This document shows, piece by piece, positions 27,486 to 35,134 of a DNA stretch of 64,000 bases (its first letter is position 1; every line of letters begins with the position of its first letter). The position numbers were made by a program, and so were the translations under genes. The DNA comes from Bacteroidota bacterium (GTDB lineage: Bacteria > Bacteroidota > Bacteroidia > Cytophagales > Cyclobacteriaceae). The stretch spans positions 1-64,000 of the forward strand of contig JACOSO010000035.1 of the NCBI GenBank assembly GCA_016178785.1, read 5' to 3'. The notes under the pieces are model-generated. The model saw nothing but the letters and a program-made list of their open reading frames with translations, was not told the origin of the DNA and ran no database searches.

Positions 27486-28736
27486 TCAAACCAGGTACTC
27501 GAAGAGGTTTTCATTTTGATTGACGACCGTATAATTAAGATGATGCGTATCCATTCGATCAACCAGCGAGTTAAAATCACCTTGCGACTTGACTTCAATT
27601 CCTATTAATGCCGGCCCCGTTTCCTTATTGTGTTTTTGAATGAACTCAAAGCGAACAATATCATCGGTAGGGCCAAGAATATGATTGACAAATTCTTTTA
27701 GCGCACCCGGCCTTTGAGCAAAACGAACGATAAAATAATGTTTGAGGCCTTCATATAAAAGAGAACGTTCTTTGATCTCTTGCATCCTGTCGATGTCGTT
27801 GTTGCCACCACTTAAAATGCAAACCACTTTCTTGCCCTTGATCTGATTGGCATATTGATCAAGTGCCGCGACAGATAATGCGCCTGCCGGTTCAGCAACG
27901 ATTGCATCTTCATTGTAGAGTTGAAGAATGGTAGAACTGACCTTTCCTTCAGGAACTAAAAGCATATCTGCAATGGTGTCCTTGCACATCGAAAAAGTTA
28001 GATCACCAACCTTTTGAACCGATGCACCATCAACGAAACGCTGGATTTTTTCAAGTTTCACCGGATGCCCCAAACGCAAGGCTTCAGTCATCGATGGCGC
28101 ACCCGCAGGTTCAACTCCGATGATTTTTGTGTTTGGGGAGTAGGTTTGCAAATACTGAGCAATACCGGAGCACAAGCCACCACCTCCAATAGGCACAAGA
28201 AAGAAATCGATATGCGATTGTTCCTCGAAAATCTCTTTCGCAACGGTGCCTTGTCCTTCGATCACTTTAATATGATCAAATGGTGGAATAAACACTTTAT
28301 TATTTCGCGAAGTGTACTCCAGTGCATGAGTTTGACATTCATCGAATGTATCTCCAGTCAATACAATTTCAATGTGATCACCGCCAAACATTCTCACCTG
28401 GTTGATCTTTTGCTTGGGAGTAATAGCAGGCATGTAAATCACTCCATGAATGTTCAATGCTTTGCATGAATAAGCCACACCTTGTGCGTGGTTACCTGCA
28501 CTTGCACAAACTACTCCGCGACTTCGTTGTTCATCAGTCAAACTATGAATGAGATTATAAGCTCCACGAATTTTATAGGAACGCACCACTTGCAGATCTT
28601 CGCGCTTCAAATAAATCTCAGCACCAAATTTCTCCGACAGCTTGCGGTGAAACTGCAACGGAGTTTTGAGCACGATGCCCTTTAGGAGTTCGTGGGCTTT
28701 GTTAATGTCTATGTTTTGTTTGATTGTCTCAGTCAT
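27486..28736 (-). CDS. ilvA: threonine dehydratase (threonine ammonia-lyase), biosynthetic
   Basis: Converts L-threonine to 2-oxobutanoate, the first step committed to isoleucine, using PLP. From the ATG at 28736 it is 416 residues. The PLP lysine is Lys55 in VRSYKIRGAYN, the glycine loop is PIGGGGLCSG, and SAGNHAQG is present. The C-terminal regulatory ACT-like region (about 330-416, LKHYFIVRFAQRPGALKEFVNHIL) is the short single type. The frame extends 20 codons further upstream, but that part comes from the ggcagt-type intergenic repeat and is not family-like. It is the last gene of the ilv operon, 75 nt after ilvC. Confidence 0.93.
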   Translation of the reverse strand: MTETIKQNIDINKAHELLKGIVLKTPLQFHRKLSEKFGAEIYLKREDLQVVRSYKIRGAYNLIHSLTDEQRSRGVVCASAGNHAQGVAYSCKALNIHGVIYMPAITPKQKINQVRMFGGDHIEIVLTGDTFDECQTHALEYTSRNNKVFIPPFDHIKVIEGQGTVAKEIFEEQSHIDFFLVPIGGGGLCSGIAQYLQTYSPNTKIIGVEPAGAPSMTEALRLGHPVKLEKIQRFVDGASVQKVGDLTFSMCKDTIADMLLVPEGKVSSTILQLYNEDAIVAEPAGALSVAALDQYANQIKGKKVVCILSGGNNDIDRMQEIKERSLLYEGLKHYFIVRFAQRPGALKEFVNHILGPTDDIVRFEFIQKHNKETGPALIGIEVKSQGDFNSLVDRMDTHHLNYTVVNQNENLFEYLV

Positions 28737-28742
28737 GTCTTT

Positions 28743-28800
28743 AAAAGTCGGCAGGAGGCAGTCGGCAGTCTTACTTCTGCCTACTGTATTCTGCAAACTG
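28743..28800. repeat. degenerate ggcagt-type intergenic tract
   Basis: Between ilvC and ilvA: repeated GGCAG units (ggcaggaggcagtcggcag) facing ctgcctactg and ctgcaaactgctt units, so the tract is roughly self-complementary. It is similar in style to the tract at 29913-29997. Confidence 0.55.
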
Positions 28801-28811
28801 CTTACTACTAG

Positions 28812-29879
28812 TTAAATCATACTCGCCTCCACTTGTTGCTTCTCCGGTCTCAATGACCTCACAGCTGCCCCGGCTTGCCACAATTCGCTTTCACGAACTT
28901 CTTTTAATTCTTCAGCCAGTTTTTCGCGGTAGTCAGGTTTACTGCAAGTATCGATCGTGCGCTTTGCTTCTGCACCGCTTGCAACACTCTCATAGAGCTC
29001 TTTGAAAACAGGAAGAGTAGCAGCTTTGAATTTCTTTTTCCAATCGAGAGCACCTCGCTGTGCTGTGGTCGAACAGTTGGCATACATCCAGTCCATTCCA
29101 TTCTCGGCAACAAGGGGCATCAGGCTTTGCGTGAGTTCTTCCACCGTTTCATTGAATGCTTCAGAAGGAGAATGACCTTTTGAGCGAAGCACCTCATACT
29201 GCGCTTCAAAAATTCCGGCAATCGCACCCATCAATGTTCCGCGCTCGCCAGTTAAATCAGAATAAACTTCTTTCTTGAAATCCGTTTCGAATAAATACCC
29301 CGAGCCAACACCAATACCCAGCGCAATTGCTTTTTCACGCGCATGACCTGTTGCATTTTGAAATACTGCAAAACTCGAATTGATGCCTTTGCCTTGAAGG
29401 AAAAGCCTTCTCACCGAAGTGCCCGAACCTTTAGGCGCAGCTAACACTACATCAACATCGGCAGGAGGAACAATCCCTGTCTGCTCTTTGAAAGTGATAC
29501 CAAAGCCGTGAGAGAAATACAACGTTTTTCCTTTCGTAAGAAACGGTTTGATCGTTGGCCACAAGGCAATCTGGCCTGCATCAGATAGAAGGAATTCGAT
29601 AACCGTTCCGCGCTTTGCTGCTTCTTCTATTTCAAACAAAGTTTCGCCCGCTACCCAGCCGTGTTCAACTGCTTTGTCCCACGTCTTCGATCCTTTGCGT
29701 TGACCAACGATTACATTAAATCCATTGTCGCGCAAGTTGAGCGCCTGCGCTGGTCCTTGCACTCCATACCCGATGATTGCAATCGTTTCATTGCGTAAAA
29801 TGTCAACCGCTTTTTCCATCGGAAATTCCTCACGTGTCACTACCTCTTCTATAGTTCCACCAAAATTGATCTTTGCCAT
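28812..29879 (-). CDS. ilvC: ketol-acid reductoisomerase
   Basis: Isomerises and reduces 2-acetolactate or 2-aceto-2-hydroxybutyrate with NAD(P)H and Mg2+ (valine and isoleucine pathways). The 355-residue protein has the Rossmann loop IGYGVQGPAQALNLRDNG, followed by GQRKGSKTW, where the basic loop suggests NADPH preference. LLSDAGQIALWP, AAPKGSGTSVRR and the metal-binding YSDLTGERGTLMGAIAGIFEAQYE are present. Its length is slightly above the usual 330-residue class I form, with a C-terminal extension typical of Bacteroidota enzymes. It lies between ilvN and ilvA, separated by repeat-filled gaps of 118 and 75 nt. Confidence 0.95.
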   Translation of the reverse strand: MAKINFGGTIEEVVTREEFPMEKAVDILRNETIAIIGYGVQGPAQALNLRDNGFNVIVGQRKGSKTWDKAVEHGWVAGETLFEIEEAAKRGTVIEFLLSDAGQIALWPTIKPFLTKGKTLYFSHGFGITFKEQTGIVPPADVDVVLAAPKGSGTSVRRLFLQGKGINSSFAVFQNATGHAREKAIALGIGVGSGYLFETDFKKEVYSDLTGERGTLMGAIAGIFEAQYEVLRSKGHSPSEAFNETVEELTQSLMPLVAENGMDWMYANCSTTAQRGALDWKKKFKAATLPVFKELYESVASGAEAKRTIDTCSKPDYREKLAEELKEVRESELWQAGAAVRSLRPEKQQVEASMI

Positions 29880-29912
29880 TTTATTAAGTGTTTAATTGTT
29901 TAATTTATTATA

Positions 29913-29997
29913 TATGGAAGTCAGGAGTCAGGAGTTAGAATTTAGGAGTCAGTCCCGATAGCTATCAGGATTATACTGCCTACTGCCTACTGTTAAA
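29913..29997. repeat. intergenic repeat tract with GATAGCTATC palindrome
   Basis: Between ilvN and ilvC: agtcaggagtcaggag units, then the near-perfect palindrome TCCCGATAGCTATCAGGA (29953-29970, one mismatched pair), then actgcctactgcctactg units complementary in style to the left part. I recall the CCCGATAGCTATCGGG word as widespread in Bacteroidota intergenic DNA. Confidence 0.6.
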
Positions 29998-30288
29998 TCA
30001 AGCTACCTTCACCAACTTTTCATTCAATTCAAAGTACTGCGAACTCCCTTCGTGCACATTGACCTCATCTACTTCAATCAGTTTTTCCAGTTGGAGTTTT
30101 ACTTTCTCAATCATTTCTGAAGTGGTATGCAACAGCAGCACAGCTCCGCCTCTTCGAAAGTCCCCTTCGTTTTCATGCGCTAGTAATTTTTTGATGCGCA
30201 CTCTTCTGCGGTTTAATACATTCACAATCCTGTTGAGGATCGAGAAGTTATTGTCGGCCGCTATCTCTATGGTGAATTCTTTTTTCAT
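29998..30288 (-). CDS. ilvN: acetolactate synthase small (regulatory) subunit
   Basis: A 96-residue ACT-domain protein from the ATG at 30288: KKEFTIEIAADNNFSILNRIVNVLNRRRVRIKKLLAHE, then GGAVLLLHTTSEMIEKVKLQLEKLIEVDEVNVHE. It binds valine or other branched-chain amino acids and regulates the IlvB catalytic subunit. It is shorter than E. coli IlvH because it has only the ACT domain. The frame continues upstream for 24 codons through an intergenic tract (NTSTREHVNTLTNN), which I exclude. It follows ilvB by 98 nt. Confidence 0.9.
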   Translation of the reverse strand: MKKEFTIEIAADNNFSILNRIVNVLNRRRVRIKKLLAHENEGDFRRGGAVLLLHTTSEMIEKVKLQLEKLIEVDEVNVHEGSSQYFELNEKLVKVA

Positions 30289-30295
30289 CTCATTA

Positions 30296-30386
30296 TTTGT
30301 TAAAGTGTTGACATGCTCACGTGTTGATGTATTTACAAGTTCAATATCCCAAATGTCCAATGCCTTAATGCCTATTATCTCACCAC
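30296..30386. repeat. low-complexity spacer between ilvB and ilvN
   Basis: Contains gttgacatgctcacgtgttgatg, a word series of the acacgtgaacatgt style, followed by tccaatgccttaatgcc. It belongs to the same class of degenerate intergenic tracts seen elsewhere in the window and creates a false N-terminal extension for ilvN. Confidence 0.4.
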
Positions 30387-32141
30387 TTATTTACTAACCG
30401 GCTCTTCCAACAGTACCTCCGCCACTCCGGCACCCGCAGGCACCATAGGGAAAACATTGTCTTCTTTACCAACTACTACTTCCAGGAAATAAGCGCTCTT
30501 TGACTCAAGCATTTCTTGAATCGCTTCTTTCACCTCTTCTCTCTTTTCCACTTTGCGCGCTTTGATTTTATAGGCTTCGGCAAGCTTTATGAAATCAGGG
30601 TTCGACATCTCAGTGAATGAATATCTTTTTCCATGAAAGAGTTGCTGCCATTGTCTTACCATCCCCAAAAAATTATTGTTGAGGATAAGAACTTTAACCG
30701 GAATTTCGTATTGCATGATCGTACCTAACTCTTGCAGCGTCATTTGAAAGCCCCCATCGCCAATTACAGCTACTACTTGCTCATGAGGTTTGGCCAACTT
30801 CGCCCCTATTGCTGCAGGTAATGCGAAGCCCATTGTGCCGGCACCACCTGAAGTAACATTCGTGTTTGGGTTTTTATATTTATAGTAGCGTGATGTTACC
30901 ATTTGATGTTGTCCTACATCAGTTACTACAATCGCTTTTCCATTGGTAGCATCACTTAACTCGTGAATCACTTCCGCCATTTTCAGTTCTTGCTGTTGCG
31001 GATAGAATTCACTATCAATAACTTTTTCCTGTTCTACTTTATTAAATCTCCTGAAAGAGGCAATCCAGTCTGTATGATTGTTCGCATCACAAAGCGCAAG
31101 CAGACTTTGTAACGCTTCTTTTGCATCGGCATGAACTGGCGCATCTGCCTTGACAATCTTGTGGATTTCGGCTTTGTCAATATCGATGTGAATCACTTTA
31201 GCTTGCTTCGCATACTTGCTCACATTGCCAGTTACACGATCATCGAAGCGCATGCCAATTCCTACCAGCACATCACATTCATTGGTCAACACATTCGGTC
31301 CGTAGTTGCCATGCATGCCAAGGAAGCCAACATAGTTTGGATGATCTGTTGGAAAACAGCCCAGCCCAAGGAGAGTACATGCCACTGGAATTCCAGTCTT
31401 CTCAGAAAATGAAACCAATTCTTTCGAAGCATTTGAAAGCAATACACCCTGACCTGCAAGTATGTATGGCTTCTTCGCATGATTAATTAAATCAGCGGCA
31501 GCTTGCAGTTGGCTCCATTGTAAAACTGGTGTTGGTTTGTACGTTCTTATTCCTTCACATTTTTTGTATCCCTCAAACTCGATAAGTTCATTCTGCGCAT
31601 TTTTTGTAATGTCGATGAGGACAGGTCCAGGCCTACCGGTTCTTGCAATGTAAAATGCTTTCGCAACAGCGGGCGCGATGTCTTTCGCTTCAGCCACCTG
31701 TATGTTCCACTTTGTAACCGGAAGCGTAGTGTTAATCACATCGGTTTCCTGAAATGCATCTGTGCCTAACAAATGCGCAAACACCTGACCCGTGATACAA
31801 ACCACCGGATTAGAATCGATCAACGCATCTGCTAAGCCCGTAACCAAATTTGTCGCACCAGGGCCTGAGGTAGCCATTGCTACACCTACTCTTCCGCTCA
31901 CGCGAGCGTACCCTTGAGCAGCGTGAATCGCACCCTGCTCGTGGCGAACAAGAATATGAGTGAGTTGATCGGCAAAATGATATAGTGCATCATACACCGG
32001 CATGATTGCTCCGCCAGGATAGCCAAACAAAATATCAACTCCTTCGGCCACAAGAGACCGTAATAAAATTTCCGATCCGGTGATCGTTGTTTTCGGAGTA
32101 AAGTCGGCACCCGATTCAGTCTTCGTCAGTAACGCATCCAT
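30387..32141 (-). CDS. ilvB: acetolactate synthase large (catalytic) subunit
   Basis: A ThDP-dependent enzyme making 2-acetolactate from two pyruvates, or 2-aceto-2-hydroxybutyrate from pyruvate and 2-oxobutanoate. The 584 residues show the N-terminal ThDP pyrimidine domain with [15 protein letters not shown] and catalytic Glu68 in [16 protein letters not shown]. The central FAD-binding domain includes [11 protein letters not shown]. The C-terminal ThDP-binding motif is [17 protein letters not shown] to [12 protein letters not shown]. Its start lies inside the 3' end of ilvD (26-nt overlap), suggesting translational coupling. Confidence 0.95.
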
Positions 32142-33789
32142 CGGCAGCTGATTTTACTTGTTTAGAATATTTGTAGAGCACACCATTTTTAACTGTTTTT
32201 TGCGGAGGAGTGTAATTCGATCTTCGAACAACTAGTTTTTTCTCTTCCACTAACAAATTGATCTGATGTTTCTTAACATCGATCTCGATCCAATCACCAT
32301 CCTCTACTAAGGCGAGCAAACCTCCTTCACTTGCTTCAGGTGTGATGTGGCCGATGACAAACCCGTGCGACCCGCCACTAAATCTGCCATCGGTTATCAG
32401 CGCTACACTTTTACCTAATCCAGCGCCCATGATCAATGATGTAGGCTTGAGCATCTCAGGCATGCCGGGAGCTCCTTTCGGTCCTACATATCGAATCACT
32501 ACCACATCTCCTTCTTTTATTTTTCCTGAACGAATTCCATCTACTAATTCAAATTCGCCATTGAATACGCGGGCAGTTCCTTTAAACTTCTCTCCTTCTT
32601 TGCCCGTAATCTTCGCCACTGAGCCTTTCTCTGCGAGGTTGCCGTATAGAATTTGTATGTGTCCCGTTTTCTTGATCGGTTTTTCTATTGGGGAAATCAC
32701 GTCCTGCTTTTCAAAATCAAGATCAATTGCATTGGCCACATTTTCTGCGATTGTTTTTCCCGTTACAGTCAAACATTCACCATGAAGAAATCCCTTCTTC
32801 AACAAATATTTCATCACTGCAGGAACTCCACCTTTGCGATGAAGTTCTTCCATCAAATATTTTCCGCTCGGTTTCAAATCAGCGAGCATAGGAGTTTTAT
32901 CTGAGATGCGTTGAAAATCTTCTTGTGTAATTTTTATACCAACACTCTTTGCCATCGCGATGAAATGAAGCACCGCATTGGTTGATCCACCCAATGCCAT
33001 TACGATCGTAATTGCATTTTCGAATGCATTGATCGTCATGATGTCGTGAGGCTTGATGTCTTTTTCAAGAAGAAGTCGAATTGCCTTAGCAGCCTCTGCG
33101 CACTCTAGTGATTTCTCCTTGCTCAATGCAGGATTGGAGGAGGAATAGGGCAACGACATCCCAAGTGCCTCAATGGCTGATGCCATCGTATTGGCCGTGT
33201 ACATGCCCCCGCACGCACCTGCGCCCGGACAGGAGTTTTGAATAATGCCTTTGTAGTCTTCGTCTGAAAGTTTGTTTGAAAGTTTTTCACCCAGCGCTTC
33301 GAATGCGGAAACAATATTCAGCTCTTTGCCTTTGTAATGACCACCTGCAATCGTTCCACCATAAACCATGATTGAAGGGCGATTCAGTCTGCCCATCGCG
33401 ATCAATGAGCCGGGCATATTCTTATCACAACCAACTACAGCAATCAATCCGTCATAATACTGCGCACCACAAACAGTCTCGATCGAATCAGCAATCACCT
33501 CACGGCTCACCAAAGAGTAACGCATTCCCTCGGTGCCGTTTGAAATACCATCGCTCACTCCTATCGTATGAAAAATTAACCCTACCAGTTCCTGATCCCA
33601 CACGGCTTGCTTCACTTCGCCTGCCAATGCATTCAAGTGCATGTTGCACGTGTTGCCGTCAAAGCCGGTACTTACAATCCCAACCTGCGCTTTCTTTAGA
33701 TCGTGTTCAGTCAGGCCGATGCCATACAACATCGCCTGTGATGCAGGTAGTGTCGGGTCCTGGGTGATAGTCTTGCTGTACTTATTCAT
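32116..33789 (-). CDS. ilvD: dihydroxy-acid dehydratase
   Basis: An iron-sulfur dehydratase forming 2-oxoisovalerate and 3-methyl-2-oxopentanoate from the dihydroxy acids made by IlvC. About 557 residues from MNKYSKTI. The three cluster cysteines are in [20 protein letters not shown] and [52 protein letters not shown] is the family C-terminal signature. A second start (MEM) lies two codons upstream at 33795. The 80-nt gap to ilvE holds gttaatcgttattagttaat-style repeats. Oxygen-sensitive Fe-S enzyme; cytoplasmic. Confidence 0.95.
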
Positions 33790-33875
33790 TTCCATTTTGA
33801 ATCGATATCAGTTAATCGTTATTAGTTAATTGTGATGTATTTACGATTAACGGATAACTATTAATCATTAACCTT

Positions 33876-34763
33876 CTACACAATTACATACGAATAACTC
33901 TTATCAAGCACCAGGTTCCAATACGCCTCTTGTACTTGATAGCTCAATGTTTTTTTCCACGGTCTGCGGAATGAATTTCCTTCGATAGACTCTATCGGGG
34001 TGATCTCCGCAGCTGTGCCACAGAAGAAAGCGCCATCGACTTCTTTCAATTCTTCAGGCAGAAATAATTTTTCCTTAACGGGGATATCCAACTCGTAGCA
34101 AATCTCAAAAACAGTTTTGCGCGTGATGCCCGGCAATATATTTCCGAGAGGTGCCGTGTAAAGTGTGCCATCCTTTTCGTAAAAGAAATTAGCAGCAGGG
34201 CCGCAAGCCACAAAGCCATTCATATCAAGCAGTAACCCTTCGTCAAACCCGCGCTCCTTTGCTTCAGTGGTAGCAAGAATGGAGTTGACAAAATTGCCAC
34301 ACACCTTTGCCTCTGCTTTACCTGAGTTGGGGTTAGATCGCTCATACGCACTGATACCTACTTTCACTGATCTGTCTCCGAAATACCTGTCCCATTCCCA
34401 TGCAGCAATCATTACCGAAGCTTTCTGTGGAGTAGTTAAAGACATGTTAGGATTACCCAACACCAATGGCCTGATGTAGGCGCTGCTCAGGTTATTTTTC
34501 TCGAGCACTTTATAACTGAATTGAGCTAACTCATCTACGGAATAAGAAAGAGGAATCCCCAGCAACTCACAGCTTCGCTTCATGCGCTCGAAGTGATCGC
34601 GTACTCTGAAAATCTTTACCCCATGCACAGAGTCATATGATCGCAAACCCTCGAATACTCCATAACCATAATGAAGCGTTTGACTGAAAGGATCAATGAA
34701 TGCATCTTTTGCCTTTACAAATTTTCCATCGAGAAAGAGAACCGTTTTGTTGTTATAATACAT
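33876..34763 (-). CDS. ilvE: branched-chain amino acid aminotransferase
   Basis: A class IV PLP aminotransferase interconverting Leu/Ile/Val and their 2-oxoacids; 295 residues. The opening DGKFVKAKDAFIDPFSQTLHYGYGVFEGLR, the PLP Lys153 in EAKVCGNFVNSILATTEAKE, and GNILPGITRKTV are all typical. Oddly, the segment normally reading VAEGxGxN is FVACGPAANFF. Cys187 replaces the conserved Glu that contacts PLP N1 in E. coli IlvE, and Ala replaces a Gly. First structural gene of the ilv operon, 46 nt after an attenuator terminator, so its expression should track branched-chain aminoacyl-tRNA supply. Confidence 0.88.
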   Translation of the reverse strand: MYYNNKTVLFLDGKFVKAKDAFIDPFSQTLHYGYGVFEGLRSYDSVHGVKIFRVRDHFERMKRSCELLGIPLSYSVDELAQFSYKVLEKNNLSSAYIRPLVLGNPNMSLTTPQKASVMIAAWEWDRYFGDRSVKVGISAYERSNPNSGKAEAKVCGNFVNSILATTEAKERGFDEGLLLDMNGFVACGPAANFFYEKDGTLYTAPLGNILPGITRKTVFEICYELDIPVKEKLFLPEELKEVDGAFFCGTAAEITPIESIEGNSFRRPWKKTLSYQVQEAYWNLVLDKSYSYVIV

Positions 34764-34800
34764 ATCGTTGAAACAAGTGTTAGTTTGTTGTTGGGTCTAT

Positions 34801-34831
34801 AAAACAAAACCGCCCCGAAGGTCGGGGCGGT
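34801..34831 (-). terminator. attenuator terminator of the ilv operon
   Basis: A perfect 10-bp stem: on the minus strand ACCGCCCCGA (34831-34822), loop CCT, TCGGGGCGGT (34818-34809), then TTTGTTTT. It sits between the leader peptide and ilvE. Its 5' arm can instead pair with the end of the leader-peptide codons at 34859-34867. Confidence 0.9.
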
Positions 34832-34867
34832 TGTTCAATTTTTTCGAATTAAATCATTACCACCCCG
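34823..34867 (-). promoter_or_regulatory. antiterminator helix of the ilv attenuator
   Basis: On the minus strand CGGGGTGGT (34867-34859, overlapping the Pro-Gly-Trp-stop codons of the leader) is complementary over 9 bp, with one G-U pair, to ACCGCCCCG (34831-34823), the 5' arm of the terminator. The two helices exclude each other. A ribosome stalled at codons 17-25 leaves the upstream strand free; a ribosome reaching the stop codon covers it. Confidence 0.8.
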
Positions 34868-34949
34868 GTTTAGAGAGAATGATAATAATCACGACAAGCA
34901 AGTTCGCGCTCACCACATTTTCAAAAAGAACTTTTACTGCTGTCTTCAT
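34857..34949 (-). CDS. ilv operon leader peptide
   Basis: A 30-codon ORF starting at ATG (34949) and ending with TAA (34857-34859). It carries LLVVIIIIL at residues 17-25 and ends SKPGW; 14 of its 30 residues are Leu, Val or Ile. It lies between a candidate promoter and a strong terminator, ahead of six branched-chain amino acid genes. Its role is to be translated as a sensor of charged tRNA-Ile/Val/Leu, as with E. coli IlvL, which is analogous rather than a recognisable homologue. The peptide itself probably has no function. Confidence 0.88.
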   Translation of the reverse strand: MKTAVKVLFENVVSANLLVVIIIILSKPGW

Positions 34950-34993
34950 GATACAACGTTGAGAATTTTTTATCTCTTGATCAAAAGATTCCT

Positions 34994-35001: not shown

Positions 35002-35134
35002 TTTTTATGAACGAGTGTTTGGTAGCAACGTGTTGCAGCACTTTTGCCTCAGTTATTTGCTATCATAACAATAGCTTCTTGAGCCGGTTGTCGATCTATT
35101 GATCACTAAAATAACTTATTGATTATTTTTATCT

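Follow-up and report, generated by a model that had tools for sequence, protein, structure and literature searches.

A predicted three-hairpin attenuator, flanked by conserved palindromic boxes, before the ilvE-D-B-N-C-A operon of a Bacteroidota bacterium

Introduction

The window studied here, a 64,000-nucleotide stretch of a Bacteroidota genome, holds an ilvE-D-B-N-C-A operon (27486-34763) preceded by a short reading frame rich in codons for branched-chain amino acids (BCAA) and by a terminator. The locus raises the question of whether this leader is a ribosome-mediated attenuator following the logic of the E. coli ilv operon, as a sequence-only reading had proposed, which hairpins it employs, and whether the ribosome is the only agent that acts on the terminator.

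Some attenuators in Bacteroidetes/Chlorobi were reportedly predicted in a comparative study of 2004 by Vitreschak and colleagues. Leader attenuators are already suspected in Bacteroidota, judging by excerpts of PMC9723704 and PMC6414381 and, for RF01692, of PMC2864571. The consulted part of PMC7366714 describes sORFs of B. thetaiotaomicron that resemble leader peptides, and that of PMC3766115 holds that amino-acid attenuators may have a gammaproteobacterial origin, with very few transfers. A paper on uORFs (PMC6429828) has, in the text consulted, nothing on ilv of this group, and the literature searched, with subscription papers mostly outside reach, yielded none on ilv attenuators in the phylum Bacteroidota.

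The leader region and its alternative hairpins

The leader region is made up of the following features, given in order of transcription:

34954..34986, minus strand: predicted promoter, TTTTG (34986-34982), 20 nt, CAACGTTG (34961-34954)
34857..34949, minus strand: leader peptide ORF of 30 codons, reading MKTAVKVLFENVVSANLLVVIIIILSKPGW and stop
34876..34890, minus strand: segment 1, consisting of the last base of the Val20 codon, four Ile codons and two bases of the Leu25 codon; pairs with segment 2
34852..34867, minus strand: segment 2, whose bases 34867-34859 form the antiterminator with segment 3 and whose bases 34866-34852 form a hairpin with segment 1
34822..34832, minus strand: segment 3, the 5' arm of the terminator, AACCGCCCCGA
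34808..34818, minus strand: segment 4, the 3' arm of the terminator
34801..34809, minus strand: U-tract, TTTTGTTTT, the first two bases of which also close the stem
33876..34763, minus strand: ilvE, first gene of ilvE-D-B-N-C-A

The leader described by the sequence-only reading, 30 codons with LLVVIIIIL at codons 17-25, is found at 34949-34857 on the minus strand, and all nine codons of this run are BCAA codons. The antiterminator claimed there is likewise present: 9 bp, including one G-U, can form between CGGGGTGGT (34867-34859) and ACCGCCCCG in the 5' arm of the terminator, with an energy of -19.6 kcal/mol. The terminator exists as well, its stem having 11 bp (34832-34822 with 34818-34808) rather than the perfect 10 bp first reported; it has a 3-nt loop and a stability of -20.5 kcal/mol and is followed by TTTTGTTTT. 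The gene order ilvE-D-B-N-C-A agrees with NCBIfam matches, the ilvN match lying below cut-off (best E 1.4e-7).

One element of the earlier interpretation, a "much more compact two-hairpin design", does not survive. In the minimum free energy (MFE) fold of the leader, a helix of 15 bp, with 6 G-U pairs among them, joins 34890-34876 to 34866-34852, and the whole-leader fold has a z of -2.75, with none of 200 shuffles equally stable. Because the control codons can thus also pair with the antiterminator strand, the region contains the usual set of 1:2, 2:3 and 3:4 hairpins. Segment 2 also pairs with upstream leader codons, over at least 5 pairs, in each of the 19 genus loci whose MFE folds were computed, and the two-hairpin design is rejected on this ground.

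On sequence-based prediction, transcription would start at or adjoining the leader ATG. The promoter pattern TTG-spacer-nAAnNTTG occurs at 26 of 35 loci, in a different register at two of these (L016, L083), and the window holds a second candidate -7 box, TATTTTTG, at 35001-34994. According to an excerpt of PMC9723704, the sigmaA consensus in Bacteroidota is TAnnTTTG at -12 to -5, and translation initiation in the phylum uses signals other than Shine-Dalgarno.

Conservation and covariation within the genus

An IlvE search of 39 relatives gave an orthologue in 20 of the 24 genus relatives; G006, G012, G014 and G019 had weak matches only, and loci L002 and L028-L031, with weak IlvE, were left out. 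Twenty-one genus loci, including that of the genome under study, were read upstream (L001, L003-L021, L027), and 20 of them have the leader and the terminator. The exception, L021 from genome G016 of the same genus, has ilvE, both palindromic boxes described below and a terminator-like hairpin, and the leader is absent. Another 15 genus genomes were selected by the upstream box, not by the leader, and all 15 have the leader; 12 of the 27 loci found by this box belonged to genomes already counted. Taken together, a leader with at least 6 of 9 residues I, L or V and a terminator are present at 35 of 36 genus ilvE loci (34 of 35, plus L027).

The N-terminal part of the leader differs widely among loci, and the BCAA run and the stop codon lie on segments 1 and 2. 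A common C-terminal ending in the genus is VIILRKPGL and stop. The identity of the stop codon varies (TGA in 22, TAA in 6 and TAG in 6 of 34 loci), and its position is steady, 48-55 nt before the U-tract in the same 34 loci. The antiterminator strand ends at one offset from the stop codon (-1) in 12 of 19 loci.

The comparison of related ilvE upstream regions that had been suggested as a check shows that both alternative pairings, which are mutually exclusive, are retained and covary. Among the 19 aligned loci of the 36, the 3:4 helix has 99.4% standard pairs, compared with 36-53% for slid partners. The corresponding values for the 2:3 helix are 88.9% and 30-52%; three of its pairs are changed on both sides, and one position of the nine lacks a pair at 11 of the 19 loci. 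At L015, three strands are altered in step (CAGGGCGGT / ACCGCCCTG / CAGGGCGGT), and at L018 and L020 an altered segment 2 is matched by segment 3. Some antiterminators are weak. That of L004, whose leader has 6 of 9 BCAA codons, reaches -7.8 kcal/mol, and those of L093, L083 and L072 reach -8.3, -9.6 and -10.1 kcal/mol, respectively, these last three energies coming from a triplet table over a wider region, which may mix registers and was used for weak pairings only.

Candidate attenuators beyond the genus

Of 118 genomes of the order, 74 yielded an IlvD. The 58 ilvD-upstream regions taken from them represent 43 other genera, once each, and 15 more regions, one of which is from the same genus; a repeat of genome G087 (L137, repeating L079) is still among the 58. 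An automatic scan for a BCAA leader with a terminator and an antiterminator was passed by 26 of the 58 regions on the forward strand (25 of 57 outside the genus) and by none on the reverse strand, compared with 2 of 348 dinucleotide shuffles (six sets of 58: 0, 0, 0, 1, 1, 0). When the threshold on antiterminator pairing was dropped, 28 forward and 3 reverse regions passed. Among 149 genomes at class level, 30 had an IlvD, and 3 of 20 upstream regions passed the strict scan, again with none on the reverse strand. The strict scan was failed by 32 of the 58 order regions and 17 of the 20 class regions.

The leaders found in the order are diverse in sequence (for example, MLFNIVVLVIILLPIVG and MLRSLVLLIIVVVIPQTG, each followed by a stop). 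In other families, leaders of unrelated sequence stand in the same place and retain the BCAA run and the pairing. In a swap test, for which 22 lineages were entered and one (L129) was dropped for want of a hit, pairing with a lineage's own terminator arm gave -17.7 kcal/mol, compared with -12.3 kcal/mol for swapped arms (21 lineages; 0 of 20,000 permutations); this value is indicative, since the set had been pre-filtered on pairing energy (threshold -9; -12 for L001) and used relaxed leaders. The own arm ranked first in 8 of the 21 lineages and below tenth in 3 (L104, L110, L120). The 1:2 signal across families is modest, with a mean z of -1.5 and 10 of 21 values below -1.5.

Two side observations concern the arrangement and ending of these leaders. 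Candidate tandem attenuators stand before the ilv operon at L118 and L149, and relaxed scans suggest further ones at L097, where the leaders have Thr codons too, at L185 and L190, and in Bizionia paragorgiae (L036), where two near-identical Ile-rich leaders lie in tandem. Pro...Gly near the stop codon is frequent in unrelated leaders (L098, L128, L142, L146) and in those of the genus; perhaps it slows release.

Palindromic boxes at ilv and leuC

The attenuator is flanked by two nearly palindromic boxes with the pattern CTAAC-N4-GTT, one upstream of the predicted promoter and one between the terminator and ilvE:

35009..35022, minus strand: upstream palindromic box (op1), CCAAACACTCGTTC; commonest form in the genus, CCTAACATTCGTTA
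34772..34783, minus strand: downstream palindromic box (op2), CTAACACTTGTT, at a distance of 26 nt from the first U; commonest form, CTAACGATTGTT

The distance from the first U to op2 is 26 nt at 36 of 37 ilv loci (35 of the genus and 2 with the label g16) and at 15 of 17 leuC loci, and the spacer over which it is measured has only 36% identity between ilv and leu. Exact sites of the op2 14-mer number 75, spread over 44 of 58 genus genomes, compared with 2 for a reversed control. Of these sites 48 were placed, 29 before ilvE, 16 before leuC, 2 before an acyl-CoA dehydrogenase gene (L163, L165) and 1 unassigned (L166); a wide regulon for the box is not borne out among these 48. The op1 14-mer occurs once each in 27 of the 58 genomes, and although the count is weak when set against the 13 matches of its reversed control alone, all 27 sites lie before ilvE.

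At the leuC loci, which were named by a family search for L153 only and otherwise by similar N-termini, a terminator precedes the box, and an upstream box is recognized by pattern at 14 of 16. A leader with at least 7 of 9 BCAA codons is absent from all 17 leuC loci. Weak ORFs with 5-6 of 9 BCAA codons, dissimilar overall, occur at 9 of the 17, and a terminator follows 6 of these ORFs. In the genome under study, leuC (C12, L192) has a terminator-like hairpin and the box CGAACACTTGTT, which is close to that genome's own ilv variant CTAACACTTGTT, and no strong BCAA leader.

It should also be mentioned that several of the regions upstream of leuC at L152-L156, L158 and L161 share AATGATTACCCAATAACCTAACCTAAACCT with a 4-codon ORF (MITQ and stop). 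The box before the acyl-CoA dehydrogenase gene is seen at L163, L165 and, with one mismatch, at L168 of the genome under study; no terminator was seen between box and gene at these loci. At L079/L137 (G087), about 190 additional nt separate the downstream box from ilvE. An RNA hairpin around op2 (ACAA/TTGT), judged by eye only, was rejected, being broken in some loci.

Conservation of the two flanking boxes makes a DNA-binding regulator a likely second layer of control, one that may act, through DNA, at the terminator. Attenuation is probably not the sole control, given the conserved boxes on either side of the attenuator and the reappearance of the downstream one before leuC.

Proposed mechanism and rival explanations

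In our opinion, the ilvE-D-B-N-C-A operon is very probably controlled by a classical three-hairpin ribosome-mediated transcription attenuator, and the attenuation proposed by the sequence-only reading gains strong comparative support from the leader frame, the position of its stop codon and the alternative pairings. Transcription would start just ahead of the leader ATG. When tRNA charged with Ile (or Val or Leu) is short, the ribosome would stall in LLVVIIIIL and cover segment 1, allowing 2:3 to form and RNA polymerase to continue into ilvE. When amino acids are plentiful, the ribosome would reach the stop codon inside segment 2 and mask that segment, so that 3:4 forms and transcription terminates. 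With no translation, 1:2 would form, followed by 3:4, and termination would be expected too. The ribosome footprint would suit this scheme: with its A site on Ile21 a ribosome would occlude segment 1 but keep clear of segment 2, and on reaching the stop codon it would occlude segment 2. Since segment 1 consists mostly of four Ile codons, the main sensitivity would be to Ile; were the ribosome to stall at Leu17-18, much of segment 1 would stay uncovered, and Ile and Val should therefore be sensed best.

A rival explanation would make the terminator chiefly the target of the DNA-binding regulator, a dimer on op2 blocking RNA polymerase at the U-tract and promoting termination in both ilv and leu, with the leader a refinement in ilv. 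We regard it as possible and hold it tentatively. The constant box distance in the face of dissimilar spacers speaks for it, as do the leuC loci, devoid of leaders with at least 7 of 9 BCAA codons, the leaderless L021 with its hairpin and boxes, and the excess of exact op2 sites over the reversed control together with their placement at ilvE and leuC. The two placed sites at an acyl-CoA dehydrogenase gene, where no terminator is present, count against it, as do the weak, dissimilar ORFs before the terminator at 6 of the 17 leuC loci. It also leaves the conserved leader frame and the antiterminator unexplained, and a regulator would therefore add to attenuation rather than replace it. A combined form, to which we give slightly less credence and which remains speculative, is a terminator with two inputs, the ribosome on the leader peptide and a putative DNA-binding regulator that sits 26 nt past the first U and would meet the front of a polymerase paused at the U-tract; both inputs would operate in ilv, and the protein input alone in leu and at L021.

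Two further proposals reinterpret op2 or the leader itself. That op2 provides the -10 element for an internal promoter driving unattenuated ilv and leu expression is improbable: an ATG lies 2-12 nt after op2 in ilv loci, and op2 contains TTG as Bacteroidota -7 elements do (PMC9723704, in the excerpt consulted), but the TTG that would serve at -33 in the U-tract varies between loci (TTTTA, TTTCA and TTTCG occur), the spacing is unlike that of the leader promoter, and op2 is nearly palindromic and has a similar motif upstream in op1. A promoter with its -33 element in the U-tract is accordingly disfavoured on account of the unconserved TTG; op2 could conceivably be a promoter of another sigma factor. 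The hydrophobic run of the peptide might, finally, suggest a small membrane protein with a function of its own, a reading to which we attach very little probability, given the variable N-terminus, the coincidence of the BCAA run and the stop codon with segments 1 and 2, and the unrelated leaders of other families that keep the run and the pairing.

Comparison with known systems

Within Bacteroidota, a close counterpart is Bacteroid-trp RNA (RF01692), likewise a predicted leader attenuator (excerpts of PMC2864571 and PMC6414381); it differs in belonging to trp operons, before which it stands according to the consulted part of PMC6414381. RF01692 has no match in the genome under study or in the window, and Bacteroides ihuae, among 14 control genomes, was positive. 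For Flavobacterium psychrophilum, PMC9723704 reports strong indications of attenuation by leader peptides upstream of amino-acid operons in Bacteroidota, the operons being unnamed in the text consulted.

Rfam attenuator families and the T-box have no match in the window at gathering score, and the idea of a T-box or a known Rfam leader was dropped; the 12 sub-threshold matches in the region have a best E of 0.04, and Phe_leader scores 19.3 bits where 55 are needed.

The comparative evidence is strong and points to classical ribosome-mediated BCAA attenuation in many genera of one Bacteroidota order. The attenuator would be a conserved one of a known type, to which comparison lends good support. 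The box at a fixed distance is the feature most worth testing. The terminator-to-box distance common to ilv and leu would make protein-assisted intrinsic termination directly testable.

The E. coli ilvGMEDA, ilvBN, leu and trp attenuators are alike in having a leader peptide with control codons, 1:2, 2:3 and 3:4 hairpins, a U-tract and a cognate operon downstream. Further traits set the present leader apart from them. Its stop codon lies inside segment 2, it is probably nearly leaderless in the window, and it is accompanied by a flanking box that also stands before leuC.
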